In this document: piece by piece, positions 35,975 through 57,389 of the stretch
How positions within the stretch are numbered: the stretch's first letter is position 1
Layout: each line of letters starts with the position of its first letter
Position numbers and translations under genes: made by a program
NCBI GenBank assembly: GCA_030949985.1
Contig: JAUZRX010000023.1
Span: 62,001-126,000, forward strand
From: Acidobacteriota bacterium
GTDB lineage: Bacteria > Acidobacteriota > Polarisedimenticolia > J045
Length of the DNA: 64,000 nt
Reading direction: 5' to 3'
Notes under the pieces: model-generated
The model's input: the letters and a program-made list of their open reading frames with translations, nothing else
What the model was told of the DNA's origin: nothing
The model's database searches: none

Positions 35975-37231
35975 CTATGCCGACTCGCCGGGAAACCGTT
36001 GGGAGGGGTCGATGCCGCGCAGTTCGAGAAGGCGGCAGATCACCGCGCCGATCTCCCGGTCGGGGGTGGAAGCACCGGCGGTGATGCCCACTTCCAGGTC
36101 TTTCTCCGGCAGCCATCCCCGGGAGAGGGCCATTTTCCCCGTGTCCGGCAGCCTGTGCCGAATTTCCCCGGCGCTGAGCAGCTCCCCCGCGCCTTCCACG
36201 TGATAGGTCGGCACCTTCTGGGCGCAGATCTCCGCCAGGTGGCCGGTATTCGACGAGTTGTAACCGCCGATGATGATCATCAGCTCCGGGGGCGACTCCA
36301 TCATCTCCAGCACCGCCTGCTGCCGGTCTTCAGTGGCGGAACAGATGGTGTCGAAAGCCCGGAAATGCTCGTCGATGGCATCGCTCCCCCAGCGATCCTC
36401 GAGGGCCTGGCGGATCACCCGGGCCACCTCGAGGCTTTCCGAAGAGAGCATCGTGGTCTGATTGGCCATGCCGACCCGCTGCAAGTCGCGGCGGGGGTCG
36501 AAACTCTCGGAGACCGACTGCGCGAAACGGCGGAGGAAGGCCTCGCCGTCGGCCCCCTCGCCGGCCCGGATGAAACCCGCCACCTCATGCGTCTCTTCGA
36601 GGTTGCGCACCACCAGCACCTTGCCGCCCGGATATTGCAGGGCGCGGGAGGCGGTGGCCCGGGTCTCCTCGTGGTCCCACTTGCCGTGAATCAGGCAGGT
36701 GTACCCCTCTCGCGCAAAACGCTCGACGTTCTTCCAGACGTTGAGAACACTGCCGCAGGTGGTATCCACCAGGAGCGCGCCGGTTTCACGCAGCCGGGTC
36801 AGCAGATCGACGGTCACCCCGAACGCGGGAATCAGAACGACGTCCTCCGGGCCCACGTCTTCGAAAGCCACCGTCGAACCGTGACCTCCGTCGAGAAACT
36901 CGTAGCCCAGTTCCCGCAGGCGGGTGTTGACACCGGGGTTGTGGATGATCTCCCCGGTGATCAGCAGCCGCCGGCCGGGAAAATGCCGCCGGGTCTCGTA
37001 GGCGTAGTCCACCGCCCGCTCGACCCCGTAGCAAAAGCCGAACTCCTTGGCGATGCGGACCTTCAGTCCCGGCCAGGCCAAGGCGTGGCCGGCCAGGCGG
37101 GCCTGGCTGACCAGTTCGGACTCGTAGTCACGGGCCAGTTCTCCGGCGACCTCGCGGCGGAGCCCGAAACCCTTGCGGACGATATCTGGAAAATGGCTCA
37201 ACGCTCTGTTCTCCGGGCTCTGCTCTGGCAA
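35975..37231 (-). CDS. ispH: 4-hydroxy-3-methylbut-2-enyl diphosphate reductase, long type
   Basis: The final MEP-pathway enzyme, making IPP and DMAPP. At 418 residues it belongs to the long cyanobacterial/plastid-like group rather than the ~310-residue E. coli type. Its three iron-sulfur cysteines are in EFGFCYGVERA (about 66), VDTTCGSVLNVW (about 157) and TICSATEDRQQAV (about 293); GGYNSSNT is also present. The N-terminal RKGFG segment is a hallmark of this group. The TTG at 37231 is chosen because it places RKGFG at residue 19, as I recall for cyanobacterial homologues. No Shine-Dalgarno; TAGGGT 5 nt upstream. Confidence 0.93.
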   Translation of the reverse strand: MPEQSPENRALSHFPDIVRKGFGLRREVAGELARDYESELVSQARLAGHALAWPGLKVRIAKEFGFCYGVERAVDYAYETRRHFPGRRLLITGEIIHNPGVNTRLRELGYEFLDGGHGSTVAFEDVGPEDVVLIPAFGVTVDLLTRLRETGALLVDTTCGSVLNVWKNVERFAREGYTCLIHGKWDHEETRATASRALQYPGGKVLVVRNLEETHEVAGFIRAGEGADGEAFLRRFAQSVSESFDPRRDLQRVGMANQTTMLSSESLEVARVIRQALEDRWGSDAIDEHFRAFDTICSATEDRQQAVLEMMESPPELMIIIGGYNSSNTGHLAEICAQKVPTYHVEGAGELLSAGEIRHRLPDTGKMALSRGWLPEKDLEVGITAGASTPDREIGAVICRLLELRGIDPSQRFPGESA

Positions 37232-37974: not shown

Positions 37975-39048
37975 TCAGGAAGGGTCCCGCCGAGCCTGGA
38001 TGCTGGCCTCCTCGAGCTTCTGCCGGCAGGGGTCCGCCTCGTCGCCATGCCGCGGCAGAGCCAGGATGCGCGGAGTCCACGGATCCTCGCGACGGTAAGC
38101 CTCACCGCGCACCGGGCAGGGCTCCACGCGGCATCCGGCACAGAGGCTCGGCGAACAGGGGTCCGGATGGACCAGCACTTCCCCCGGCGCCGCCAGGCCT
38201 TCGATCAGGGCCGCGGAAAGTTCCTGTTGCGCCTCGTGTACCCGCTCCAGTTCCCAGTAGCGCGGCAGGGTCAGATGGAAGTCGATATGGACGAAATCGC
38301 CCGAACTCCAGGCCCGCAGCAGGTGAACATCGATCCACTCGTCCCGGCGCAGCCGCCGGAGGACTTCGGCGATGCGCGCGATCAGTCGCGGGTCCTGCCG
38401 GTCCATCAGCCGCCCCCCCGCCTCCCGCAGAAGCTGGACCCCGTTGAGGGTGATGATCGAGGCCACCAGGCAGGCGGCCAGGGGATCGAGAATCACGAAA
38501 CCGGTCAGCTTCACCAGCAGGAGGCCGACGATCACACCCGCGGTGGTCACCGTATCGGCCAGCAGGTGCCGCCCCTCGCCGACCAGGGTCAGGCTACCGC
38601 ACCGTTTTCCGCGGAGGACGAGGAACGAGCCGATCAGCAGGTTGGCCAGCGCCGCCGCTACGGCCAGGGTCAGTCCGGTGCCCAGGTCGCTGAGGGGACG
38701 GGGATCGAGCAGCGCGGGAATCGCCTCCCGCGCGATGCCCGCCGCGGCCAGGAGAATCATCACTCCCGCAAGCCCGGCGGAAAAGAACTCGATGCGCCCG
38801 TGTCCGTAGGGATGGGAGCTGTCCGCCGGTCGGGAAGCGTAGACGACACTGAAGAGTCCGAAAGCCCCGGTGAGCACGTTGACCAGCGATTCGACCGCGT
38901 CGGAGAGCAGGGCCTGGCTGGAGGTCAGCCACCAGGCCACCACTTTCAGCCCGCCGATCAGCACCGCCAGCACCAGCACTGCGGACATCACGACGACGGT
39001 ACGGCCCTGGCCCGAGATGCTGTCGCGTACCTTCTCGCCTCGCTCCAT
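37975..39048 (-). CDS. Cation diffusion facilitator (CDF) metal transporter
   Basis: A 357-residue CDF protein exporting divalent metals (Zn, Fe, Co or Mn) by proton antiport. There are six transmembrane helices in the first ~205 residues, with metal-site residues in LLSDAVESLVNVL (helix 2) and GRHLLADTVTTAG (helix 5, HxxxD). A cytoplasmic domain (about 210-300) includes HIDFHLTLPRYWELERVHE. An unusual tail (about 305-357) has CSPSLCAGCRVEPC, four cysteines that could bind metal. The ATG at 39048 has no Shine-Dalgarno but TAGACT 7 nt upstream. Divergent from the UPF0104-type gene. Confidence 0.9.
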   Translation of the reverse strand: MERGEKVRDSISGQGRTVVVMSAVLVLAVLIGGLKVVAWWLTSSQALLSDAVESLVNVLTGAFGLFSVVYASRPADSSHPYGHGRIEFFSAGLAGVMILLAAAGIAREAIPALLDPRPLSDLGTGLTLAVAAALANLLIGSFLVLRGKRCGSLTLVGEGRHLLADTVTTAGVIVGLLLVKLTGFVILDPLAACLVASIITLNGVQLLREAGGRLMDRQDPRLIARIAEVLRRLRRDEWIDVHLLRAWSSGDFVHIDFHLTLPRYWELERVHEAQQELSAALIEGLAAPGEVLVHPDPCSPSLCAGCRVEPCPVRGEAYRREDPWTPRILALPRHGDEADPCRQKLEEASIQARRDPS

Positions 39049-39185
39049 CGAGCCCAGTCTACCCGGATCTTTCCCGTCCCTCGAAACGACGTCGCGGCCG
39101 AGCGCTGCAGGCCGGAACCCCCAGCGCCCGCCCCCTTCCGCAGGGAGCCGACCGGACCAGGCGCCGGAGCAAGCCGTCGAGCGGT

Positions 39186-39214
39186 TTGGCAGACGGGTTC
39201 GGGGGCCCCAGAAT
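39186..39214 (+). promoter_or_regulatory. Candidate sigma70 promoter with leaderless start
   Basis: TTGGCA (39186-39191), 17-nt spacer, CAGAAT (39209-39214), then six bases and the ATG at 39221. Both boxes match consensus at five or four of six positions. The predicted start falls on or next to the A of the ATG, so the mRNA would have essentially no leader. The best-formed example of this arrangement in the window. Confidence 0.6.
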
Positions 39215-39220
39215 CGACCC

Positions 39221-40312
39221 ATGCATGCCGCCCCCATCGAGCCCGCCGATCGCCGCGTCCGGAAACGCGGACCGGTCGGTCGCCGCGTACTGGCCCTGAC
39301 CTTGCTCCTGCTGGCTGTCGGTTTTCTCGCCTGGCAGGTCCAGCGCGCCGGCCCACGAGAGATCGCCTCACGCCTGGTCGAGGTGAGCTGGCCCTGGCTG
39401 GGGGTGATCGCAGCGCTGACCCTCGCCCGCTACCTGGTGGCGTCCATGAAACTGGCAGCCATCAGCCGGCGCCTGATGCGGGTGCGATTCGCGGCCTACG
39501 TGCCGATCTTCCTCGCCTCGCAGATTCTCACCCTGGTGATCCCGGGCCTCCGGGTCGGAGGCACCATCCTGCGGGCCCACCTGGCCAACCGACGCTTCGG
39601 AGGCGGCTTCGCCCGTCACCTGGGGCCCAATATCCTCGACCAGCTCACCCTCTTCGCGGCCTGGCTGATCGCCGCCGGCGTTCTGCTGCCCGTGGCCGCG
39701 GCGGAAACCGCCGGCCCCGTGCCCTATCGTCCCTTTCTCCTGCTGGCGGGATTGACCGGAGCCTTCGTCGGAGGCTTTTTCCTCTTCCGGCGCCACTGGC
39801 CGGCCATCCACCGCTGGCTGAGGTTCGAGCGCCGCGGCCTGAAAGCCCGGGTGGCCCAGGCCCTGGCCCAGGCCCTGGAAGGCACGGGCACCCTGGTCAC
39901 CGATCCGACCGCCATCTTCCTCGGCCTGGGCGGCGGCCTGCTCTTCGTGCTGCTGGCCGGGCTCTGCCAGCACGCCGCCCTGCACGCCCTGGGCGAGCCG
40001 GTGGCCTGGTGGACCTCCCTGCTCGCGGTGGTCGTGGGAACCACGGCCGGCACCGCTTCGGGCACCCCGGGAGGCCTGGGAGTCGCCGAGGCGGCCCAGG
40101 TGGTCTACCTCCAGGGGCAAGGCATCCCCCCGGGGATGGCGACGGCGGCCGTGCTGCTGGCCCGGGGCGCGTACTACATTTCGATCCTGGCTACCGGCGG
40201 CCTGTCCTTCGCCTGGGAAGCCCGACAAGGACACCTGGCGGGGTTGATGGGAGGCCGGTTACCAGCCGCTGCCCACGATCCAGTGAGCCGTCCCCAGGAC
40301 ATGACCTCTTAG
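39221..40312 (+). CDS. UPF0104 / LPG-synthase-TM family integral membrane protein
   Basis: A 363-residue polytopic membrane protein with about eight hydrophobic helices, of the lysylphosphatidylglycerol-synthase transmembrane (UPF0104) type. Typical segments are ASMKLAAISRRLM, LTLVIPGLRVGG and VGTTAGTASGTPGGLGVAEA (about 274-293). Relatives act as lipid flippases or as membrane parts of lipid-modifying enzymes. The aminoacyl-transferase domain of MprF is absent. Substrate unknown. The start is at 39221, with no Shine-Dalgarno and a promoter placed for leaderless translation. The last 54 bp overlap the convergent PEBP gene. Confidence 0.82.
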   Translation: MHAAPIEPADRRVRKRGPVGRRVLALTLLLLAVGFLAWQVQRAGPREIASRLVEVSWPWLGVIAALTLARYLVASMKLAAISRRLMRVRFAAYVPIFLASQILTLVIPGLRVGGTILRAHLANRRFGGGFARHLGPNILDQLTLFAAWLIAAGVLLPVAAAETAGPVPYRPFLLLAGLTGAFVGGFFLFRRHWPAIHRWLRFERRGLKARVAQALAQALEGTGTLVTDPTAIFLGLGGGLLFVLLAGLCQHAALHALGEPVAWWTSLLAVVVGTTAGTASGTPGGLGVAEAAQVVYLQGQGIPPGMATAAVLLARGAYYISILATGGLSFAWEARQGHLAGLMGGRLPAAAHDPVSRPQDMTS

Positions 40313-40804
40313 CTCGCCCTCCATCCGGTCGGCATCCGCTCCGGGCTCGAGAGAGACCGGGCGGTCGAGGGCGTAGAGGGTGAAGCGCAGGCGTCGCCCC
40401 CCCCCCATTTCGAGGGGCGGTGCGGCAAAGCCCGGCAGCCCATCGCCCACCCGGGCCTGGGACAGGCCGGCGACCCGGGCCTCCCGGGGCAGGCCCGGGG
40501 GCAGGCCCCGGCGATCGGGCGTGATGTTCCACACGGCCCAGAAGATCCGGCCGCGGCCGATCGCGGAATCGTCACGGGCCACCAGCGCGAGACTCGCCGT
40601 ACCCGGCGGGACCGCCTGCCAGTTCAGCTCGGGGCTCCCGCCGAAACGTCCCATCATGGTGATCGCGGTCCAGCCGCCGGCAGCCGGTCCTGCCGGTTGC
40701 AGGTGGAATCCCGGACTCTCGTTACGCAAAGCGCTGTCCACGCCGGCGGCCAGGGAAACCGCGGCGACGAGGAGCAGGATGGGCAGGCTGAGTCTGAGGT
40801 CCAT
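40259..40804 (-). CDS. Exported YbhB/YbcL-type PEBP-like protein
   Basis: A 181-residue protein with a signal peptide (about 1-21, LPILLLVAAVSLAAG) and a phosphatidylethanolamine-binding-protein-like domain: RFGGSPELNWQAVPPGTASL (about 52-71), ALVARDDSAIGRGRIFWAVW (DxD-like and HW-like positions) and RLRFTLYALDRPV. The classic DPD ligand motif and the conserved histidine are altered (RDDSA; IFWAVWNI), so the anion-binding pocket may differ. Function in bacteria is poorly known. The ATG at 40804 has TACATT 8 nt upstream and no Shine-Dalgarno. Confidence 0.75.
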   Translation of the reverse strand: MDLRLSLPILLLVAAVSLAAGVDSALRNESPGFHLQPAGPAAGGWTAITMMGRFGGSPELNWQAVPPGTASLALVARDDSAIGRGRIFWAVWNITPDRRGLPPGLPREARVAGLSQARVGDGLPGFAAPPLEMGGGRRLRFTLYALDRPVSLEPGADADRMEGELRGHVLGTAHWIVGSGW

Positions 40805-40864
40805 GGACCCGGAATGTACCGCGAAACCCGGCTCCGGCAGGGAGAGCCGGGGAATCGGGCGAAA

Positions 40865-40894
40865 TTGGAGGAGGACGGAGCCAGGCGGTATCCT
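40865..40894 (+). promoter_or_regulatory. Candidate promoter for the 757-residue protein gene
   Basis: TTGGAG (40865-40870), 18-nt spacer, TATCCT (40889-40894), then 7 nt and the ATG at 40902, with no Shine-Dalgarno. Another leaderless-type arrangement. Confidence 0.45.
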
Positions 40895-40901
40895 GCTGGC
40901 C

Positions 40902-43175
40902 ATGGACTCGGCTGGAGGGCAACCCGACCCGCAGGCGTTTGCGCTGCGGCGGGAGTTGAGGGACTTGATCGACCACCTGGTCGAAGGGGGATGCGGACAC
41001 CGGCGCCGCTTCGAGGAAGTCCTCGAACGCCTCGGACGCTCCCGCCGCCTGGCGCTCCGGCAGATGATCGCCATCCTCCGCCATCACCCCGTGGGCGACC
41101 AGGTGTCCGCCCTGGAGATCCTCGGCCGTCTGGCCCGCCCCTCCGATGCGCGACAACTCGCCGCCATCGCTTCCAACAGTGACGAGCCGGAGACCTGCCG
41201 CGTGCTCTGCGCGATGGTCGTACTGGGACTCGACCAGGGCGAACGCCTGGACGGCGCGGAGATCTCCGGCCTGGTGCTGCGCTGGCAGGCGCGACACCTG
41301 GCCGAGGAACCGGGACTGCGCGAGCCGCTGCTCCGACTCTATGCCTCGGCTCCTCCGGACGAGCGGCGACGCTGGCTGGCCCTGCAGGACGACCAGCTCG
41401 ACGAGGTGGAAGGCCGCGCAGCGGTGTTCGAAATGCTGCTGGAAGCCGAGAACGATCCCTCCTTGCGGGAAATGGCCCTCGAGGCCCTGATTCGCATCCC
41501 CCACCCCACCGTGCGGGCGGCCCTGCGCCGGATTCGACCGCAGGGGCCCTACGAGCGGGACTTCGTCACCGGCGCCCTGGCAGCCCTGGCGGCAAGCGCC
41601 GACCCCGTGGCCGTGCCGGAGGGCTGGAGCGCCCGGATCGGCTTCTGCGATGGATCGGGTGCCTTTCCCCTGCGCTTCGACTTCCTCCGTGAAGGCCAAC
41701 GCCCGCGCTGCGCCCTGTTCATCATCGATCTCGAACGAGGCCCCACCGAGGCGCTGGCGCTGGTGGGCAACGAGGTCGCCCGCTACGACGGGCTGGACGG
41801 CGATCTTCCCGGAGAAAACGGGGGCGCTGGCGAACCCGAGCTCTACCCCATCGCGATCAACCGGGCCCTGGCCCTGCTCGAAGAGGCCCGACGCCAAGCG
41901 GGGCCGGGCCGGATCCCCGCCTGTCCCGACTTCGAGGATGCTTGCCGGCTGCTCGATCCGCTCGCCGACGTGATGCCCGTCGCTGCCGAGGCCTTGCCCC
42001 TGCCGGAGGTGCCCGACGCCCTGCGACGTTCGGCCCTGCTGGTGGATCTCCCAGGATATGCGGGGTGGTTCTACGATGGGGGCGACCGTTTCCTCGACGA
42101 TCTCCGCCTGCAGCACCTCGAGGCCCCTCGCCCCCTGGCGCCTCCCGCGGCCCGGCTGGTCAACGCGGCGGTCGACCGCCTGATCGAGCGCGGCGAGCCG
42201 GCCCGCCTCGCCCGCCGCCTGCGACACAACGCCCTGGTCCATCGCCTGGCCAGCCAACTGGAGTTCGGGGCGATCGCCATGGCCGCGGCCGCGGCCTGTC
42301 AGACGCGGGAGTTCCGGAGGCTGCCCCTGGTGCGACGCATCGTCACCCGCTCTCTCCACCCCGGGCACATGTTCTTCTCCCCGACTCCCGACGCCACCCG
42401 GCGCGGCGACCTGGCGGAACTGCTGATCGACACCTCGGCCCCCGATCGCCACCAGGTCTTCACGGTGGATCTGGCCTGGATCCTGACCCGGGCGATGGAA
42501 GTCTGGCAGGCGCGGATCCCGGTCGGCGATCGTCCCTCCGGAGAACAGGCCCGGTTGGCCGTGCTGACCCTGGCCCCGATCGTCGCCCGCTGGATCGAGA
42601 GCTTTCTCGATCGTGCAGCCATGCCTCCCGCCGCGGCCTGGGAAGCGGCCGGGGACGATCTCCGGGCGGTCATCGGCGGCCACCTGGAAGATCGCGGTTT
42701 CGCCCGGCCGGCGGTGGACCCCCGGTGGCAAGAACTCCTCACCCTGCTGGCCTCCGCGGCCCGCGTCCTGGTTTTCGAGATCTGTCTCGACCAGTGCCAC
42801 ATGCACTGCCCGGCTCACCCCCGCCTGCCCGCCGGCGACGCCCTGGATCACGGCGTCTTTCCCGCCGGCCGCCAGGCGGAAGTCCGCATTCGCTCCTGGC
42901 CCGGAACACTGCGCTGCGAGACCCCGCCCCACCACCGTTCGATTCTCTACCGCTTGCTCGACAAGGCCCGTCGACGCCGGCTCCGCACCCCCTTTCTCTG
43001 CGCTCTGTGCCGCGAGCCGCGCCCGGGCACGACCCGCTCCCGCTCCCGGGCCCGGGACGCGGAGGGTCGGCAGCACCTCGTCTGCCGCCGCTGCCAGGGT
43101 CGCTACGGTCGGGATGCGGCCTTTCGTCGGGAGATCGAAGCCCGTGGCCTGAGGCTCGAAGCGCCGCGTTCCTAG
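40902..43175 (+). CDS. Unrecognised HEAT-like repeat protein with C-terminal zinc ribbon
   Basis: A 757-residue cytoplasmic-type protein without a family I can name. The N-terminal ~230 residues look like HEAT/ARM repeats (LEILGRLARPSDARQLAAIA, ALEALIRIPHPTVRAALRRI). A middle region has RFDFLREGQRPRCALFIIDL, resembling a substrate- or RNA-binding module, and many alpha helices. The C-terminus has CLDQCHMHC (about 629-637) and a zinc ribbon CALC...CRRC (about 705-735) with a basic loop. No catalytic triad or P-loop seen. A nucleic-acid or protein scaffold is possible, but this is a guess. It converges with the RND/ABC operon 9 nt downstream. Confidence 0.6.
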   Translation: MDSAGGQPDPQAFALRRELRDLIDHLVEGGCGHRRRFEEVLERLGRSRRLALRQMIAILRHHPVGDQVSALEILGRLARPSDARQLAAIASNSDEPETCRVLCAMVVLGLDQGERLDGAEISGLVLRWQARHLAEEPGLREPLLRLYASAPPDERRRWLALQDDQLDEVEGRAAVFEMLLEAENDPSLREMALEALIRIPHPTVRAALRRIRPQGPYERDFVTGALAALAASADPVAVPEGWSARIGFCDGSGAFPLRFDFLREGQRPRCALFIIDLERGPTEALALVGNEVARYDGLDGDLPGENGGAGEPELYPIAINRALALLEEARRQAGPGRIPACPDFEDACRLLDPLADVMPVAAEALPLPEVPDALRRSALLVDLPGYAGWFYDGGDRFLDDLRLQHLEAPRPLAPPAARLVNAAVDRLIERGEPARLARRLRHNALVHRLASQLEFGAIAMAAAAACQTREFRRLPLVRRIVTRSLHPGHMFFSPTPDATRRGDLAELLIDTSAPDRHQVFTVDLAWILTRAMEVWQARIPVGDRPSGEQARLAVLTLAPIVARWIESFLDRAAMPPAAAWEAAGDDLRAVIGGHLEDRGFARPAVDPRWQELLTLLASAARVLVFEICLDQCHMHCPAHPRLPAGDALDHGVFPAGRQAEVRIRSWPGTLRCETPPHHRSILYRLLDKARRRRLRTPFLCALCREPRPGTTRSRSRARDAEGRQHLVCRRCQGRYGRDAAFRREIEARGLRLEAPRS

Positions 43176-43184
43176 CCGCCGGTC

Positions 43185-43901
43185 TCATCCCCCGTCCAGC
43201 ATGCGCTCGCGCCGTTCCGCCCGGGAGTAGGCCAGGGCGAGGCATGCGGCGCCCAGCAACAGGTAGCCCAGGCGATTGCGCAACCACAGGGCCTGGACTT
43301 CGCCGGGATCCTGCCCCGAGACGGTCAGGGGCGACCAGAAAGGCGAATAGGCCGAACCGGCGAAGAGCAGGGCCACCGCCAGCACCACCACCGCGGCGAG
43401 CGCGCCGCTGATGGCCCCCCGGAACAGAGCACCGGTGCCCGTGGCCACCACCAGGAAGAACAACCCCACCTGCAACGAGGCGACCAGGGCCTCGAAGGGG
43501 AAATCGGTCAGCAGGAGAAACACCGCAGCCGCCAGGGTCAGCTCGGCTGCCACCATCAGCAGGGCCGCGGCGATCAGTTTGGCGGTCCAGATGCGCCCGG
43601 CCCCGCCCGGCACGGTATAGGCGATCTCCAGGGTGCGCTGATCGATCTCCGCGGCGATCACCCGTACGCCGAGAAAGATTCCCAGGGCCGCCAGGGGCAG
43701 GCCGATCAGCAGGCCCTGCACCGAACGTTCCGTGTACCCTCCCCCGCCATCGCCCACGAAAAGCAGGGCGTAGAGCAGCAACGGCCAGGCCAGTGGCACC
43801 ACCGCCACCAGACCATAGCGGCGGGAGGCCATTTGCCGCGCGGAAGGGGGCAAGGTCGCCAGCAGGGCTCCCAGGGCGGCCAGGCGGCGGCTCGGCATCA
43901 T
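43185..43901 (-). CDS. ABC-2 type transporter permease subunit
   Basis: A 238-residue membrane protein with about six hydrophobic helices (WPLLLYALLFVG, LLIGLPLAALGIFLGVRVIA, LLMVAAELTLAAAVFLLL, VGLFFLVVATGTGALF, LAAVVVLAVALLFAG, LGYLLLGAACLALA). The cytoplasmic-loop motif AAEIDQRTLEIAYTVPGGAGRIWTAK, split across about residues 83-108, is typical of ABC-2 export permeases, where it contacts the ATPase. The start overlaps the stop of the RND-ABC fusion gene (ATGA), so the fused ATPase is its natural partner. Last gene of the six-gene operon. Confidence 0.8.
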   Translation of the reverse strand: MMPSRRLAALGALLATLPPSARQMASRRYGLVAVVPLAWPLLLYALLFVGDGGGGYTERSVQGLLIGLPLAALGIFLGVRVIAAEIDQRTLEIAYTVPGGAGRIWTAKLIAAALLMVAAELTLAAAVFLLLTDFPFEALVASLQVGLFFLVVATGTGALFRGAISGALAAVVVLAVALLFAGSAYSPFWSPLTVSGQDPGEVQALWLRNRLGYLLLGAACLALAYSRAERRERMLDGG

Positions 43902-46900
43902 GACGGACTTCCCACGAGCAGCATGTAGCCATCCTCCAGGCTGGGTTCGGCAGGGCGGGCCTGGTCGGCGGGGGCCCGGGCACAGAGCACGCGCAGGCGG
44001 CGCGAGCCATCACCGACGGGCGCTTCATCGACGATTCGGGCTCCGGCAGGCAGTTCGACCGGCCGTTCCGGCGGCACCCTCACCTCCCACACCCGGCCGG
44101 CAGCCCGCCGCGCCAGTCCCGCGGGGCTGCCGTCGTAGACCAGGCGACCGCCGGCCAGGACCAGTACCCGCTCACAGGAAACCTCGACGTCTTCCACCAC
44201 GTGGGTCGAAAACAGGACGATGCGTCCGCGAGCCAGGCGCGCCAGGAGGTTGCGGAAGCGAATGCGTTCCCGCGGATCGAGGCCGACGGTGGGTTCGTCG
44301 ACGATGATCACCGGCGGCAGGCGCAGCAAGGTCCGGGCGATGGCGACCCGCTGGCGCATGCCCCCGGAGTACTCGGCGATGCGCCGATCGGCCTTTTCCG
44401 CCAGCCCGACTTCTTCCAGCAGACGGTCGACCCGTTCGCGACGCTCGGCGGCCGGGACGATGTCGTAGAGCAGGGCGTAGTAGAGCAGGTACTCCCGCCC
44501 GGTCATGTTGTCGGGGAGGCCGAAGTCCTGGGGCAGGTAGCCCAGCCAGCGGGCCAGGCGGGGACGGAGTCCGTCGAGGGGCTCGCCCCCGAGGCGGATC
44601 ACCCCGGTCACCGGATCGAGGATGCCGGCCAGCAGCCGCAGCAGGGTGGTCTTCCCCGCGCCGTTGGGGCCCAGAATCCCGATCATGCCCCGTTCGGCGT
44701 CGAATTCCACGTGATCGAGGGCGCGCACCTCGTCGGCGGAAGCGGCGGGAGCGAGCCACCGCCGGGCCAGGCCTTCGAGCGCCGGGGGGGAGCGTCTCCG
44801 GCCCGATCCGCGCGCCGGCGATTCCCGGGTCGCCAGGTGACGACCGTATTGGAAAATCGCGAGGGTCAGGGCCAGGAGCACGGCTCCCGCCAGGCGCCAC
44901 CCCAGGCCCGCGCGGCCTTCGAGCCAGGGAGCGAGCACGTCCCTGAAGAGGACGATCTCCCAGGCGGCCCAGGGCAGGGCCAGGGCCAGCGCCCCCTCCG
45001 CCCCGCCGGGCGTCTCCCGCCCCAGGGCGTCGACCTTGCCCCGCCAGCGGCGCAGGTGTTTCAGCCAGGCCCCCAGCCAGCCGGCGGTGACGAAGAGGAA
45101 CACGATCTTCCACAGCCCGGCCGAGGCGGCGTGGGCCAGGTAGCCCGTGGCGCCGGCCAGCAGGGCGTAGCGAGCCAGGGGCTCGACGGCGTCTTTCGGC
45201 AGCCAGGCGCGGGCCCCGCGGGCCTCGACGCGCTCGAGAAATTCCCGCCGGGCGCCGAGAGCCGCCCGCAGCGGGCCGGGCAAACCATAGAGCTTGGTCA
45301 GGGCCCGCACTTCCAGGCGCGGGGGAGCGCCCGGCTCGATCTTCGGCTCGGGGGGAGGCTCGCGTCGCCAGGAGAGGGCGATCGACAGCAGCCAGCAGGC
45401 GGCGACCAGCACCGTGGTGACGATCTGCCAGGTCAGTGAGCTGACGGCTCCACTCCTGAAAAGCGGTCCGACGACCGCGGTGGTCAGGCCGAGCCAGGCG
45501 AGCACGACCCACGGCCCCAGCCGCCCGAAGAGGGTGTCCAGCCGACGCAGGAGCACGTAGGCCAGCGGGATCACCACCAGCGTCAACACGGTGGATGCCG
45601 CCAGGCCTCCCATCACCACCGTGGCGAAGGGGGGCCAGATCTCGTTCTCCCGCCCCGTCGCCAGGGCCAGGGGCCACAGGCCCGCCAGGGTCGTGACGGT
45701 GGTCATCAGCACCGGCCGCGCCCGTTCCCGGACAGCGGCCAGGGCGGCGGCTCCCGGCCCCCAGGTGCCCGAGCGGCTTCTCTGCTGCATCCGGTCCACC
45801 AGCAGAATGGCCGGATTGACCGTCAGGCCCAGCAGCGCCAGGGTGCCGACCAGCGCCATCAGGTCGGCGGGCATCCCCGCCGCGATCAGCGACCAGGCGG
45901 CCCCGATCAGGGTCAGCGGCAAGGCGAGCAGCACCAGGAAAGGCATGGAGAACGATTCGAAAGTCAGGGCCAGCACCGCGAAGAGCAACAGGACGACGGG
46001 GACGAGGATCTTCCTGAACCACCCCGTCGCCGCTTCGCGGGTCTCCGTCTCCAGTGTGTAGCCCCGGGGAAGGGCCAGGCTGCGCACGGTGGCCTGGAGC
46101 TGGCGTTCGATTTCCAGCCGCCGGGGACCCACCTCCGGCAGATGCCGCGAAAGGCGGTAGAGCACGCTGATCTCCCGGCGGCCGTTGCGATGGCGGATCA
46201 CGGGGGCGGCCGGCAGCACGCGCACATCGCTCAGCACCCCCAGGGTCGTGACCCCGGCCGGTGTGCCGACCGGCAAGGTCTCGAGGGCGCGGCGATCGAG
46301 ACGCCGGCCCTCGCGGAAGAGCGTTACGGGGGTTTCCCTGCCGTCGCGTCCCACCATCCCCACCGGCAGGACCATGCCTTCGCGGCGGAAGGCGGACAGG
46401 GCGGGCAGAATCGACTCGGGAGCCAGGCCGAGGGCCGCGAGCCACTCCCGCCGGGGCTCGATGTTCAGCTCCGGCGGGTTCCCGCCGCCGGCCACCCAGG
46501 CGTTTTCCACCTCTTCGAGGGCTTCCAGCCGAGCCGCCAGTTCCCGCCCCAGCCTCGTCAATCGTTCGGCATCCGGGCCGGACAGGCGGACGCGGGCCGG
46601 TCCGTTCCCCAGCAGGTCCGTCGTCTGCGCCTCGCCCCCCCCACCCTGGTCGTCTCCCGGACGCAAGACCTCGGTGCCCGGCAGCTCGCGCGCGGCGATC
46701 CGCTCGACCCTGGCCACCAGGCTTGCCGCCGAAGTCTGCGGCGGACGCTTGTCGGCCTCGACGAGCTTGATCGTCAGGGAGCCCGAGCCTTCCTGGATGA
46801 AACTCGACACGCCGGCCACGCCGGCCGTGGCCAGCAGCCGCCTTTCGACTTGTCCGAAGATCGCGCTGCTGCGCTCGAGAGTGCTGCCCGGGGGCAGGCG

Positions 46901-48628
46901 CAGGGACAAGCGCACCTCGTCGGCCTCCCGGCCGCCTCCCGTGGCGGTGTTGACCCCCAGCCACACCGTGGCCACGACGGCGGTGATCAGCACCGCTCCC
47001 CCAATGCCCGCCAGCCACGCGCCGGGGCGCCGCAGCGCACTGGCCAGCAGGCCGCCGAAGACTTCCCGGCCGATGTCCGGCGGGGAAAGCCCGCCGCGCT
47101 CGGCCCGTCTCCGGCGCCGGGCCGCGATGGCCCGCAGCGCGGCCGGGGCCGCGAGTCGGCGGGAGAGCAAGGGCACCAGTCCCAGGGCCACGATCAGCGA
47201 GCCGGCCAGGGGCAACAAGTAGGCCAGGGCGAGAATGCCGACCAGGGTCTGCATGGCCCGGTCACCGAAATCCACGATCAGCAACGGAAAGAAGACGACG
47301 GCGTTGGTGGCGGTGGCGGCGACGATGGCCCGCACGGTGCGCCGGCTGCCGGTGAGCGTCGCCCGGCCGGCATCCTCGCCCCGTTCGAGCTGCCTCTGGA
47401 TGGCTTCGTAGACGACGATGGCGTTGTCGACGAGCATGCCCAGCCCTACCGCCAGGCCGAAGAGGGTGACCAGGTTCAGGCTCTGGCCGGCCAGGTAGAG
47501 CAGCGCCAGGGCGATCAGCAGGCTGGTCGGCACGGCCAGGGCGACGACCAGCACCGCCCGCAGCCGACGCAGGAAGAGCATCAGCGCGGCGAGCGCGATC
47601 AGAAAACCCGTCGCCGTGAGTTTTTCCAGTCGGAAGATTTGCTTTTCGACAACGTCGGCAGCGTCGAAGTGGATCGAAAAACCGACGCCCCGCTCCTGGA
47701 ACTCCCGCCGCAGGCGCTCGAGCCGCTCCCGCAGGGCGCGCCCCATGCGCACCAGGTTGGCGCTCTCGTTCTTGAAGATCACCAGGCCCACGGCGTTCTG
47801 ACCGTCGACCCGGAAGAGGGTCGTCTCACGCCCGCCCGCCTGGTCGATGGCGGCCACGTGTCGCAGGCGGACCGGAGAGTCCGCAGCGAGCTGCACCTCC
47901 GCCAGGCTGACCACGGACGGCGGCCGCCCATCGACCAGTACCAACCGGCGCCCCCCGAAGCCATCGATGCGGCCCGCCGAACGCGGCGCCGCCAGCACGT
48001 CGGCCAGCCGCCGGGCCACCGCCTCGGGAGGCATCCCCCATGCCGCCAGTCGGGCCGGGGAGAGGTCGATGCGGATGCCATGGCGGGCGCCGCCGAAGAT
48101 CAGCACCCGACTGACGCCGCCGACGCCGCTCAGCCGCGGCTCGATCTCCTCCTCGACCAGGCTGCGCAGGGCGTGGCGATCCACCGGCGCCGTCACCTGG
48201 ACGACCATCACGAAGCGGCTCATGGCGGAGAAGTCGTTGGCGGCGCCCACGTCGATCGTGGTGCCCGGCGGCTGGCCGTGTCCGAGATCCGCCGCCAGTT
48301 GCCGCAACTCGAGTTCCCGCACCTTGATGTCGGTCCCCTTTTCGAAGCGCACCCGCAAGAAACCGGAGGCGCCGCGAATCTCCCCCTCGGTCTCCTGCAC
48401 CCCATCGATGGAGCCGACCCGGGCCTCGAGGGGCATCAGGATCTCCCGCTCGACGACCTCCGGCGGCGAACCGGGGCGCACGAAGCTCAGGTCGAGGGTG
48501 TCGCCGCTGACCGGCGGAAAAAGCTCCACGGGAATCTTCCACCCGGCCAGCAGCCCGAGCAGGACCAGGGCGGTGAAGAACATGGCCGTGGCCACCGGTC
48601 GGCCAGCGGGCAGGGCCAGCCAGCTCAT
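43898..48628 (-). CDS. RND efflux permease fused to an ABC transporter ATPase domain
   Basis: A 1576-residue chimera. Residues ~1-1030 form a complete HAE-type RND permease with 12-helix layout: LPAGRPVATAMFF at helix 1, GMLVDNAIVVYEAI (about 394-407) with the helix-4 aspartate, and LTVNPAILLVDRM (about 935) at helix 10. Two more helices follow (~1032-1085). An ABC nucleotide-binding domain occupies ~1101-1576: first strand LEVRALTKLYG, Walker A GPNGAGKTT (~1319), Q-loop YLPQDFG, signature YSGGMRQR (~1419), Walker B IIVDEPTVGLD (~1442) and H-switch FSTHVVED. A ~185-residue membrane segment interrupts the ABC domain between its first strand and Walker A. The frame is uninterrupted. It overlaps RND and ABC-2 neighbours by ATGA. 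Confidence 0.85.
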   Translation of the reverse strand: MSWLALPAGRPVATAMFFTALVLLGLLAGWKIPVELFPPVSGDTLDLSFVRPGSPPEVVEREILMPLEARVGSIDGVQETEGEIRGASGFLRVRFEKGTDIKVRELELRQLAADLGHGQPPGTTIDVGAANDFSAMSRFVMVVQVTAPVDRHALRSLVEEEIEPRLSGVGGVSRVLIFGGARHGIRIDLSPARLAAWGMPPEAVARRLADVLAAPRSAGRIDGFGGRRLVLVDGRPPSVVSLAEVQLAADSPVRLRHVAAIDQAGGRETTLFRVDGQNAVGLVIFKNESANLVRMGRALRERLERLRREFQERGVGFSIHFDAADVVEKQIFRLEKLTATGFLIALAALMLFLRRLRAVLVVALAVPTSLLIALALLYLAGQSLNLVTLFGLAVGLGMLVDNAIVVYEAIQRQLERGEDAGRATLTGSRRTVRAIVAATATNAVVFFPLLIVDFGDRAMQTLVGILALAYLLPLAGSLIVALGLVPLLSRRLAAPAALRAIAARRRRRAERGGLSPPDIGREVFGGLLASALRRPGAWLAGIGGAVLITAVVATVWLGVNTATGGGREADEVRLSLRLPPGSTLERSSAIFGQVERRLLATAGVAGVSSFIQEGSGSLTIKLVEADKRPPQTSAASLVARVERIAARELPGTEVLRPGDDQGGGGEAQTTDLLGNGPARVRLSGPDAERLTRLGRELAARLEALEEVENAWVAGGGNPPELNIEPRREWLAALGLAPESILPALSAFRREGMVLPVGMVGRDGRETPVTLFREGRRLDRRALETLPVGTPAGVTTLGVLSDVRVLPAAPVIRHRNGRREISVLYRLSRHLPEVGPRRLEIERQLQATVRSLALPRGYTLETETREAATGWFRKILVPVVLLLFAVLALTFESFSMPFLVLLALPLTLIGAAWSLIAAGMPADLMALVGTLALLGLTVNPAILLVDRMQQRSRSGTWGPGAAALAAVRERARPVLMTTVTTLAGLWPLALATGRENEIWPPFATVVMGGLAASTVLTLVVIPLAYVLLRRLDTLFGRLGPWVVLAWLGLTTAVVGPLFRSGAVSSLTWQIVTTVLVAACWLLSIALSWRREPPPEPKIEPGAPPRLEVRALTKLYGLPGPLRAALGARREFLERVEARGARAWLPKDAVEPLARYALLAGATGYLAHAASAGLWKIVFLFVTAGWLGAWLKHLRRWRGKVDALGRETPGGAEGALALALPWAAWEIVLFRDVLAPWLEGRAGLGWRLAGAVLLALTLAIFQYGRHLATRESPARGSGRRRSPPALEGLARRWLAPAASADEVRALDHVEFDAERGMIGILGPNGAGKTTLLRLLAGILDPVTGVIRLGGEPLDGLRPRLARWLGYLPQDFGLPDNMTGREYLLYYALLYDIVPAAERRERVDRLLEEVGLAEKADRRIAEYSGGMRQRVAIARTLLRLPPVIIVDEPTVGLDPRERIRFRNLLARLARGRIVLFSTHVVEDVEVSCERVLVLAGGRLVYDGSPAGLARRAAGRVWEVRVPPERPVELPAGARIVDEAPVGDGSRRLRVLCARAPADQARPAEPSLEDGYMLLVGSPS

Positions 48629-55700: not shown

Positions 55701-56177
55701 CGGCAGGGCACCCGCACTGACCATGAGCACCGCCGAGACCGTCTCCGGAGCCTCGCCGAAGATGCCCCCGACCCCCACCATGAAGCCGAAGATCAGCAGC
55801 ATGGGAATCCAGGAGGCGATCAGCAGTCCCAGCCAGCGGCCCGCCAGCATTTCCAGGTTGCCGGCGGGCTTGGCGTCGAGAACCTCGTGGATGCGCTCCC
55901 TTACGTCTCGTGCGCGGACGTCGAAGGCGAGAAAGATCACACCCAGCAGGTAGAGCAGGATGAAGTTGGCCCCGTAGCTGCCGGCGAAATAGCGTGGATT
56001 GATCAGGGCGAAGCTGGCCGCGTGGGTCGAGGCGAAGTAGTGAATCGAGGCGTGATAGGTGAACAGGGCCAGCGAGAAGACCACGGCCACGAAAAGGAAG
56101 ATCCAGTAGCGCACCAGGCGACGGGTGAGCCGCATTTCCATCGCCGCCATCGCCCACAGCCTGCTGAAACCGGCCAT
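52770..56177 (-). CDS. ABC permease fused to a catalytically degenerate M1-peptidase-like domain
   Basis: A 1135-residue protein. The N-terminal ~270 residues form an ABC-2-type membrane domain with about seven helices, including the ATPase-contact segment DVRERIHEVLDAKPAGNLEM. A further helix (~285-305) leads to a large periplasmic part resembling the M1 aminopeptidase region of known ABC-permease/M1 fusions. No HExxH motif occurs anywhere in the chain, so zinc peptidase activity is not expected. The last ~300 residues are beta-rich (VEIGMLSSVPPAAVKIEPY; GEWTLEVHYAGTPGA; WYPVETMDLLEGDVEVSI), like carbohydrate- or protein-binding modules. The start overlaps the ATPase gene stop as TGATG, with AGGAGGT upstream. 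Confidence 0.8.
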   Translation of the reverse strand: MAGFSRLWAMAAMEMRLTRRLVRYWIFLFVAVVFSLALFTYHASIHYFASTHAASFALINPRYFAGSYGANFILLYLLGVIFLAFDVRARDVRERIHEVLDAKPAGNLEMLAGRWLGLLIASWIPMLLIFGFMVGVGGIFGEAPETVSAVLMVSAGALPALGLVIALVYLVSLGLRHRLAAALVLLVAWGLLFSVLSGWIPVPFFLVQAIDITGAYSLNFPSDLSTWLPGWPVVAQRVGYLSLTLGLLLLAALVHPRRDDSRSPGRVTAAAVCTAAGALLVVMLSWSNGADIRRLHHWERVHAARASEAVADLQLIEGRVKLDPGRRLDLDLRLTVAAAGDTSLDHLLLSLNPGLVVERLAVGGHELEFSQGDGLLEFDLPGVLEAGDSLSFDLEAGGLPDPLFAYIDHAYHPLEAKTDEGNVFLFGFENAIYERGLVALPAGCRWLPAMGAEVGRGSPRVHPRDLHRVRIDVEAPAGWKLAGPGVTAPVAPGAGGGEVWRIDGEVPLPPIGLFAGPYAERSLEVEGVTFRALVEPGHLERLAVLALAEGELREYLAGLVRDARELGLPVPGKVLTLVEVPHALRGYGGGWRRDSVQAQPGVVLMRESGLPTARFDVAFEKLDDADPATYEGGKARAIFDRTLLFVRGDTVGGNPLVNAARTLVDFRTAPRGPGGEALAFVNEVLASRLLTGEASYFSTRVFMGRRGSRVIGQAIARYMKNRDEGFAAALATLMTSRPSVWEAALSTSLVDLDPDRDPQKAIDVLTLKGGALSRSLIDALGRERSGALLAGLVQDGGTAGYGLEDYLDLAGGIDPDLAEWLRLGMETTELPAFRGAPAEVYRLEDAADGTPRYQLLVRVANDGAAPGLLRVRADLEGEGQAAASRLSDPIRLDAGVGVEIGMLSSVPPAAVKIEPYLAENRGAFEVPLDTAEAERVRAVAPFDGTRPWSPPPPDGDLVFVDDLDPDIRFIAPEAGGWFRRSVGRREELDHGLPARAFSGSGLRNWARVERLSAAGRYRHTLAAVRAEPGEHRVVVPARLPEAGEWTLEVHYAGTPGAAAPTGSWHFGVEEASEGREFSWKLEFDEPGWYPVETMDLLEGDVEVSITADENTRLLFFDALRWRRTRPPGGGGEVRE

Positions 56178-57079
56178 CAGGACACCTCCGGGAGAATCGA
56201 ACCGTGCCCGCCACGCCGGGCCATGAACGCCAGGTAGGCTTCCTCGAGGGTCGGCTCGCGCACTTCCCGGGCTCCCGCCGGCGGGGCAGCGCCGACCAGC
56301 ACGACCCGGGCCGCTGACGCCGTGCGGGAAACCTCTTCCACGCCTTCCGCCGCGGCCTGCCCCGGCTCCACCTCGAAAACCCGACCCCTGGCCGCAGCCA
56401 CCAGGCGCGCCGGAGAACCGTGGAAGACGATCTCGCCCCGATCGAGCAGGGCCACCCGGGCGCAGCCCGCGCCCAGGTCCGCAACGATGTGGGTGGAGAG
56501 CAGAACCACCCGTTCCCGGCCGAGTCCGGCCATCAGTTGCCGAAAGCGGATTCTCTCCTCGGGGTCGAGACCGACGGTGGGCTCGTCCACCACCAGGACG
56601 GGGGGATCCGCCAGCAGCGCCTGGGCCACCCCCAGGCGCCTGAGCATGCCCCCCGAGAGCTTCTTGACCTTGCGCGAAGCCACCGGCTCGAGCCCGACCG
56701 CCGCCAGCACTTCCCCCACGCGCCTCCGGCGGAGGGCGCGATCGTCGAGCCCCGCAAGCCGGGCCAGCGTGTCGAGCACCTCCTCCACCCGCTGCAAGCG
56801 CCAGGCGCCCCACTCCTGGGGCAGGTAGCCGATCACGCGCCGCACCTGGAGCCGCTGGCGGACCGTGTCGAAGCCGCAAACCTGGACCCGCCCCTCGCTG
56901 GGCTCGAGCAGCGTGCAGACGATCCGCATCAGCGTGCTCTTGCCCGCGCCGTTGGGACCAAGCAGGCCGAAGAGCCCCGGTCCGATGTCGAGACTCACGG
57001 CGTTGAGAGCCTGGGTTCCCCCCGGATAGAATTTGCTGACGGACTCGATGCGGATCGAAGCCTGGATGCCATCGCTCAT
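56177..57079 (-). CDS. ABC transporter ATP-binding protein
   Basis: A 300-residue ABC ATPase that should power the adjacent permease. It has Walker A GPNGAGKST (about 42-50), Q-loop GYLPQEWGAW, signature LSGGMLRRLG (about 140), Walker B LVVDEPTVGLD (about 163) and H-switch LSTHIV, all intact. The C-terminal ~80 residues form a variable domain ending PTLEEAYLAFM. It is clearly paralogous to the ATPase domain fused to the second RND protein, sharing EPTVGLDP, ERIRFR and STH in the same spacing. The ATG at 57079 is preceded by GGAGGT. First gene of the six-gene operon, with a -10-like TATAAA at 57107-57102 (minus). Confidence 0.92.
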   Translation of the reverse strand: MSDGIQASIRIESVSKFYPGGTQALNAVSLDIGPGLFGLLGPNGAGKSTLMRIVCTLLEPSEGRVQVCGFDTVRQRLQVRRVIGYLPQEWGAWRLQRVEEVLDTLARLAGLDDRALRRRRVGEVLAAVGLEPVASRKVKKLSGGMLRRLGVAQALLADPPVLVVDEPTVGLDPEERIRFRQLMAGLGRERVVLLSTHIVADLGAGCARVALLDRGEIVFHGSPARLVAAARGRVFEVEPGQAAAEGVEEVSRTASAARVVLVGAAPPAGAREVREPTLEEAYLAFMARRGGHGSILPEVS

Positions 57080-57389
57080 GTCCACCTCCAGCCGGGCGCC
57101 CTTTATACGTCTTCCCGCCTGAATCGTTGACGCGATCTTCCCCTCGAGCGGCCCGTGTTCGGCCGAGCGGTTGTCGGCACGCGGTCAGCGGAGGGTGTCA
57201 CGAGACCGACGCCGGGCGGTGGGAACGCCGACGGAAAGTCGACGCTCGAGTGGCCGCCGGCCCACCACCGCGCCCTCCTCCTCCCCTCCGGGGCGCGCTT
57301 TCCGGTCAGCCGGATCTACGCCCGAGCCGCGGCATGAATCTTGAATACATCCGGGAGCCGCCCCTCTGAGCGGCAAGGGAGCCTTTTTC
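57080..57389. other. Divergent regulatory gap between the ABC/RND operon and the DUF115-like gene
   Basis: About 310 bases with no supportable gene; the short frames in it lack ribosome-binding sites and family features. On the minus strand TATAAA (57107-57102) sits 22 nt before the operon start, with no clear -35. On the plus strand TTGACG (57127-57132) has no matching -10. The ribosome-binding site AAGGGAG (57375-57381) for the plus-strand gene is at the right end. Confidence 0.5.

Follow-up and report, generated by a model that had tools for sequence, protein, structure and literature searches.

A single gene in the window (the whole 64,000-nucleotide stretch of Acidobacteriota DNA analysed here) encodes an RND permease and an ABC ATPase in one polypeptide, and probably specifies a two-engine export machine. 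The gene lies on the minus strand (48628-43898), where it forms a single frame with an ATG start (MSWLALPAG...) and zero internal stops (Table 1). An HAE-type RND permease is followed by two extra TM helices and an ABC-2-type ATPase domain with a four-TM interruption, so that the protein combines two known kinds, an RND permease and an ABC-2-type nucleotide-binding domain (NBD), with ~280 residues between the RND domain and the Pfam ABC_tran match. The stop-to-stop frame extends further upstream than the ATG at 48628; this ATG shares bases with the stop of the preceding RND gene in the sequence ATGA, which makes 1576 residues the sensible length for the fusion. The stop of the fusion in turn overlaps the ATG of the downstream six-TM permease (ATGA). 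The original prediction, made from the sequence, described an uninterrupted 1576-codon frame at 43898-48628 and a neighbouring ABC-2 permease overlapping its stop; both were found, and its description of the fusion was correct in all details that could be checked, with the strand alone missing. A plus-strand reading of the same interval is ruled out by stops. A hidden stop between the RND and ABC parts, which the prediction had raised as a concern, was looked for and none was present in the frame; homologues are likewise fused.

Table 1. Features of the fusion gene and its operon (coordinates are those of the window).
Feature	Coordinates	Strand	Evidence
Six-TM ABC-2-type permease, 238 aa	43185..43901	minus	Weak Pfam ABC2_membrane; model pLDDT 92
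RND-ABC fusion gene, 1576 aa	43898..48628	minus	Open frame; Pfam ACR_tran and ABC_tran
Remaining ABC ATPase domain, residues 1301-1573, all catalytic motifs	43910..44728	minus	Pfam ABC_tran; 48/48 invariance; Foldseek folds
Four-TM insertion in ABC domain, ~residues 1144-1268	44825..45199	minus	Four long model helices; hydropathy
First ABC-domain β-strand LEVRALTKLYG, residues 1105-1114	45287..45316	minus	Model strand; invariant columns
Extra TM helices 13-14, ~residues 1039-1086	45371..45514	minus	AlphaFold2 helices, pLDDT 90; hydropathy conserved in homologues
RND permease domain, residues 10-1027, 12 TM and periplasmic domains	45548..48601	minus	Pfam ACR_tran, full length
Partner RND permease (RND1), 1021 aa	48625..51690	minus	Pfam ACR_tran, E 1e-202
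Periplasmic adaptor (MFP, HlyD_D23/HlyD_3), 359 aa	51694..52773	minus	Pfam; RND_mfp TIGR01730 above cut-off
ABC-2 permease with large periplasmic M1-peptidase-like domain, 1135 aa	52770..56177	minus	Homology to L063:1413-4757
Stand-alone ABC ATPase (ABC1), GldA/DrrA-like	56177..57085	minus	Pfam ABC_tran

The RND half has the make-up of a full-length AcrB-type permease (12 TM helices, two large periplasmic parts). Pfam ACR_tran matched residues 10-1027 (E 4e-142, positions 8-1020 of the 1021 in the profile), and the best sequence match in the PDB was MdtB (9-1030). It scored below the cut-offs of the NCBIfam HAE models (366.8 bits for NF033617, where 1250 are needed, and 272 for TIGR00915, where 940 are needed). 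The helix-4 aspartate that had been predicted along with the full-length permease is present, as D401, equivalent to AcrB D407. Across 48 fusion sequences the D407 and R971 equivalents are invariant and the neighbouring Thr residues are kept. The equivalents of D408 and K940 are Asn (N402, next to D401 in TM4, and N938 in TM10), with one Ser and one Thr as the only exceptions at the D408 position in the 48 sequences. In AcrB, D407, D408, K940 and R971 are all reported to be essential (PMC10924465). The partner permease RND1 shows the same pattern, with Asn at both the D408 and K940 positions. As these two residues are replaced in both RNDs, proton coupling is not certain. Thus, of the claim that one chain holds both energy modules, the intact RND and ABC domains stand, while we infer the proton coupling. 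Asn at the K940 position is also found in unfused RND relatives; most of these comparison loci were selected with a motif, VN[PN], that contains this very Asn and are therefore biased, but three other RNDs of the window's own genome are an unbiased sample. Because unfused relatives share the D408/K940 pattern, we do not conclude that the RND half of the fusion is inactive.

We examined the ABC half with an AlphaFold2 model of fusion residues 1028-1576 (47 sequences, mean pLDDT 90) and compared the hydropathy of the inter-domain region in nine relatives. Pfam ABC_tran matched residues 1305-1447 (E 2e-29), and the Walker A (GPNGAGKTT), Q-loop (YLPQ), signature (YSGGM), Walker B (VIIVDEPT), D-loop and switch (STH) motifs are all present. 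Every NBD position tested, including the catalytic Glu and the switch His, was invariant in 48/48 fusion sequences, which bears out the complete NBD with intact catalytic motifs of the original prediction. That prediction needs one correction: the NBD is itself interrupted, between its first β-strand and Walker A, by four TM helices, as shown by both the model and hydropathy. The fusion thus lacks the contiguous NBD, free of TM insertions, by which an ABC-2 exporter is recognized, and no Pfam family covers the insertion. K1112 and Y1114 in the first strand are invariant across 47 sequences (columns K85 and Y87 of alignment A4). In the model this strand would pack on the NBD sheet, since it is the sole strand assigned before model residue 274 and needs a partner. 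Foldseek neighbours of the NBD were TM_1403 (4yer), NosF, LptB, FtsE and similar NBDs. Apart from the insertion, this half is an ordinary NBD of the ABC-2 type, and the fusion supplies a new variant of the ABC domain in which four TM helices interrupt the NBD.

The architecture is not confined to the window. A profile built on the RND C-terminus and linker was run against a GTDB-based genome collection, and the best 80 loci were kept. The RND and ABC parts lie in one ORF in 47 of these best 80, so that the same domain order, for which a search had been suggested, does recur in other genomes; nor are all homologues split, as nearly all profile matches are fused and one is clearly split. The carriers comprise Acidobacteriota, Gammaproteobacteria (Pseudomonadota), a deltaproteobacterial MAG, Bacteroidota isolates and MAGs, Latescibacterota and a KSB1 MAG, and stop-free full-length fusions also occur in relatives of the window's genome. 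The genome counts that follow are lower bounds, because only a few candidates per genome were scored in the large sets: with linker profile A5 the fusion appeared unusually common in Latescibacterota (any match in 36/64 genomes, ~30 substantial), and there were substantial matches in 5/6 genomes of the phylum of the KSB1 MAG, in 6 of 395 Bacteroidota genomes (7 with any match), in 3/247 genomes of the phylum of the deltaproteobacterial MAG and in 1/274 Gammaproteobacteria, while profile A2 gave strong matches in 25/297 genomes of the window's phylum.

This distribution makes it extremely improbable that an assembly or sequencing error has joined two genes. Such an error might be suspected from the window's genome, which is a 133-contig assembly, and from a relative (L175) with a frame change inside the insertion. 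However, the same architecture occurs in many independent assemblies, which refutes an artefact; several carriers are single large contigs, such as the 6 Mb genome G020 (CP011806, L049), and others are isolates, for example Prolixibacter, Mariniphaga and Sunxiuqinia. The L175 homologue (L175:3999-8734) changes frame within the four-TM insert, possibly through a sequencing error, and its ORFs overlap by ~97 bases.

In a FastTree phylogeny the RND domains of the fusions formed one clade (99), which also holds the contig-truncated L037 and the split L089. The RND1 proteins likewise formed one clade (100), with a topology broadly matching that of the fusions. Pairwise distances within the two families were closely related over 26 operons (r = 0.98, compared to at most 0.29 in 1000 permutations), a co-divergence for which shared descent is as good an explanation as physical contact. 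Among a small number of sampled ABC domains, the NBD of the fusion and ABC1 were closest to each other. In the one clear split homologue (L089, a MAG), the reading frame of the RND half stops after TM14, and the NBD has an ORF of its own that begins just 5′ of its first strand. The break right before this strand leaves the NBD and its TM insert together as one module. A roughly palindromic, repeat-like stretch lies between the two ORFs (L089:5504-5717).

The fusion belongs to a set of six or more genes that are conserved together, and this set includes another RND (RND1), the adaptor, another ABC ATPase (ABC1) and another ABC-2 permease. The operon runs in the order ABC ATPase, ABC-2/M1-like permease, TolC-type OMF (in Bacteroidota), adaptor, RND, RND-ABC fusion and six-TM ABC-2 permease. 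Among the 47 fusion loci, where the fetched DNA had room for the gene, RND1 was present in 40/43, the adaptor in 40/41, the ABC-2/M1-like gene in 31/38 and the stand-alone ATPase ABC1 in 18/18; a six-TM-like ORF lay directly 3′ of the fusion in 45/45. The model of the six-TM permease resembles ABC-2/type V exporters, judging by its Foldseek matches to NosY, KpsM, ABCG and CcmB (prob ~1, TM 0.5-0.6, each E >0.01). The ABC-2/M1 protein of the window is 24% identical over its whole length to a homologue (L063:1413-4757) that has ABC2_membrane_2, Peptidase_M1 (below its cut-off) and Golvesin_C matches; in Bacteroidota the protein has a Golvesin C-terminal domain at its end. The HExxH...E zinc motif is absent from the M1-like domain of the window protein and from all of 29 homologues (0/29).

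A TolC-type OMF gene sits within the operon in 22 Bacteroidota loci. None lies beside the operon of the window, whose genome has 17 OEP matches elsewhere. At one locus where the operon is not of the Bacteroidota type, a TolC-type OMF-like gene is found directly 3′ of the ABC-2 permease (L038:12830-14554). Genes near the operon in the window, encoding LytB/IspH, cation efflux (CDF) and PEBP-like proteins (35975-37231, 37975-39237 and 40259-41074, minus strand), have no evident link to it. The flanks offered no clue to a substrate, as neighbours differ between genomes and those listed share no common theme. PADLOC gave generic ATPase matches only, and thus no link to anti-phage defence, and the search for plasmid spread gave no match to the fusion linker.

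What kind of machine could these genes encode? We consider it somewhat better than an even chance that the fusion acts as coupling subunit in a hybrid export machine of ABC and RND parts, handing substrate from an ABC-2 exporter to an RND conduit. The RND half and RND1 would form a heterotrimer, for which MdtB2C is a precedent (PMC4338810, PMC10924465), and this trimer would dock the adaptor and a TolC-like channel. The fusion NBD, paired with ABC1, would power both ABC-2 permeases, and this ABC exporter would be kept next to the RND trimer by the extra helices TM13-14 together with the four-TM insert. With ATP hydrolysis as the driving force, the substrate would be moved or extracted from either the cytoplasm or the inner membrane; it would then pass to the RND/adaptor/channel conduit to be expelled across the outer membrane by the proton motive force. 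One fusion protomer per RND trimer would supply exactly one extra NBD for ABC1, although this stoichiometry is a guess. Gene order and homology are our only grounds for proposing that a complex forms, that the NBDs pair and in what stoichiometry; the energetics are likewise deduced. The ABC-RND machine is suggested by the fusion in one ORF, its conserved operon partners and NBD motifs intact in 48/48 sequences, by the kinship of the NBD and ABC1, the co-divergence of the fusion and RND1 and the start/stop overlaps at both ends of the fusion, and by the ABC-2-like permease model and the split homologue that keeps NBD and insert as a module. It is weakened by the lack of an OMF gene beside the operon of the window, by the relay Asn residues and by possible co-inheritance of the two RNDs.

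Other readings of the same genes are less probable. The fusion might be only a tether between an independent RND pump and an ABC-2 exporter, joined for stoichiometry or co-localisation with no direct hand-over of substrate and no exchange of energy. Both halves do look complete separately, and the split homologue implies that covalent linkage is not essential everywhere. We nevertheless think a mere tether unlikely, since the parts of the operon are co-conserved across phyla and the fusion is kept in nearly all members, which suggests functional coupling, and since the six conserved extra TM helices resemble an interface more than a loose link. It is less likely again, and in our view improbable, that the fused NBD directly powers or gates the RND half and so offsets its reduced proton relay. 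Two residues essential to the AcrB relay are indeed Asn in both RNDs, and TM helices wire the NBD to the RND half, but the D407, R971 and Thr equivalents are kept and the NBD has dedicated ABC-2 permease partners. Nor did we accept the loss of D408 and K940 as proof of an ATP-driven RND, given that similar substitutions occur in unfused RNDs (at the K940 position in the three from the window's genome, most of the other loci being biased by the VN[PN] motif).

It seems very improbable that the NBD is no motor and serves instead to sense ATP for regulation or to assist assembly. Some ABC-family systems work by mechanotransmission and not transport, and an M1-like domain that lacks its zinc motif allows a structural role for parts of the system; against this, none of the residues tested for hydrolysis varies in the fusion sequences, the catalytic Glu and switch His included.

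The proposed ABC-RND machine shares parts with several known systems. Like the fusion operon, the heteromeric HAE-1 systems MdtABC and MuxABC-OpmB have two adjacent, different RND genes and one adaptor (PMC4338810), but they have neither an ABC domain nor ABC-2 permeases, and the relay is DD...K in MdtB compared to DN...N in the fusion. The ABC-2 (type V) exporters (NosFY, DrrAB, GldA-containing, KpsMT and CcmAB) share its NBD family, its predicted permease fold and an ATPase gene that adjoins a permease gene; in the fusion system, in contrast, the NBD stands behind a whole RND permease and is interrupted by four TM helices, and the operon has two non-identical ATPases and permeases. SecDF with SecYEG-SecA offers another parallel, as a proton-driven part of the RND superfamily cooperates with an ATP-driven motor, although there the polypeptides are separate, the process is protein translocation and SecA is not an ABC ATPase. 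MacAB-TolC is also an ATP-driven exporter with an adaptor and a TolC-type channel, but MacB has its own NBD and periplasmic core domain, is of a different ABC type and works without an RND (PMC8277102 and general background). We found no report of an RND-ABC fusion in the open-access literature searched; a blank in that part of the literature is weak evidence of novelty.

The usual view places RND pumps and ABC exporters in two distinct classes, each with an energy source of its own. A chain that holds both, conserved and set in an operon with partners for each, offers a direct way to study how ABC transport at the inner membrane can be linked to an RND-driven step across the outer membrane, and the machine is open to experiment, as cultured hosts exist (Prolixibacter, Mariniphaga and Sunxiuqinia). 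We tentatively put at just short of an even chance the larger claim of a dual-energised class, in which two covalently linked engines, an RND driven by the proton motive force and an ABC exporter driven by ATP, would work in series on a common substrate across both membranes; the fusion would then be the coupling part and the four-TM insert in its NBD the interface. If both engines do act in series on one substrate, the fusion machine would deserve a class of its own.
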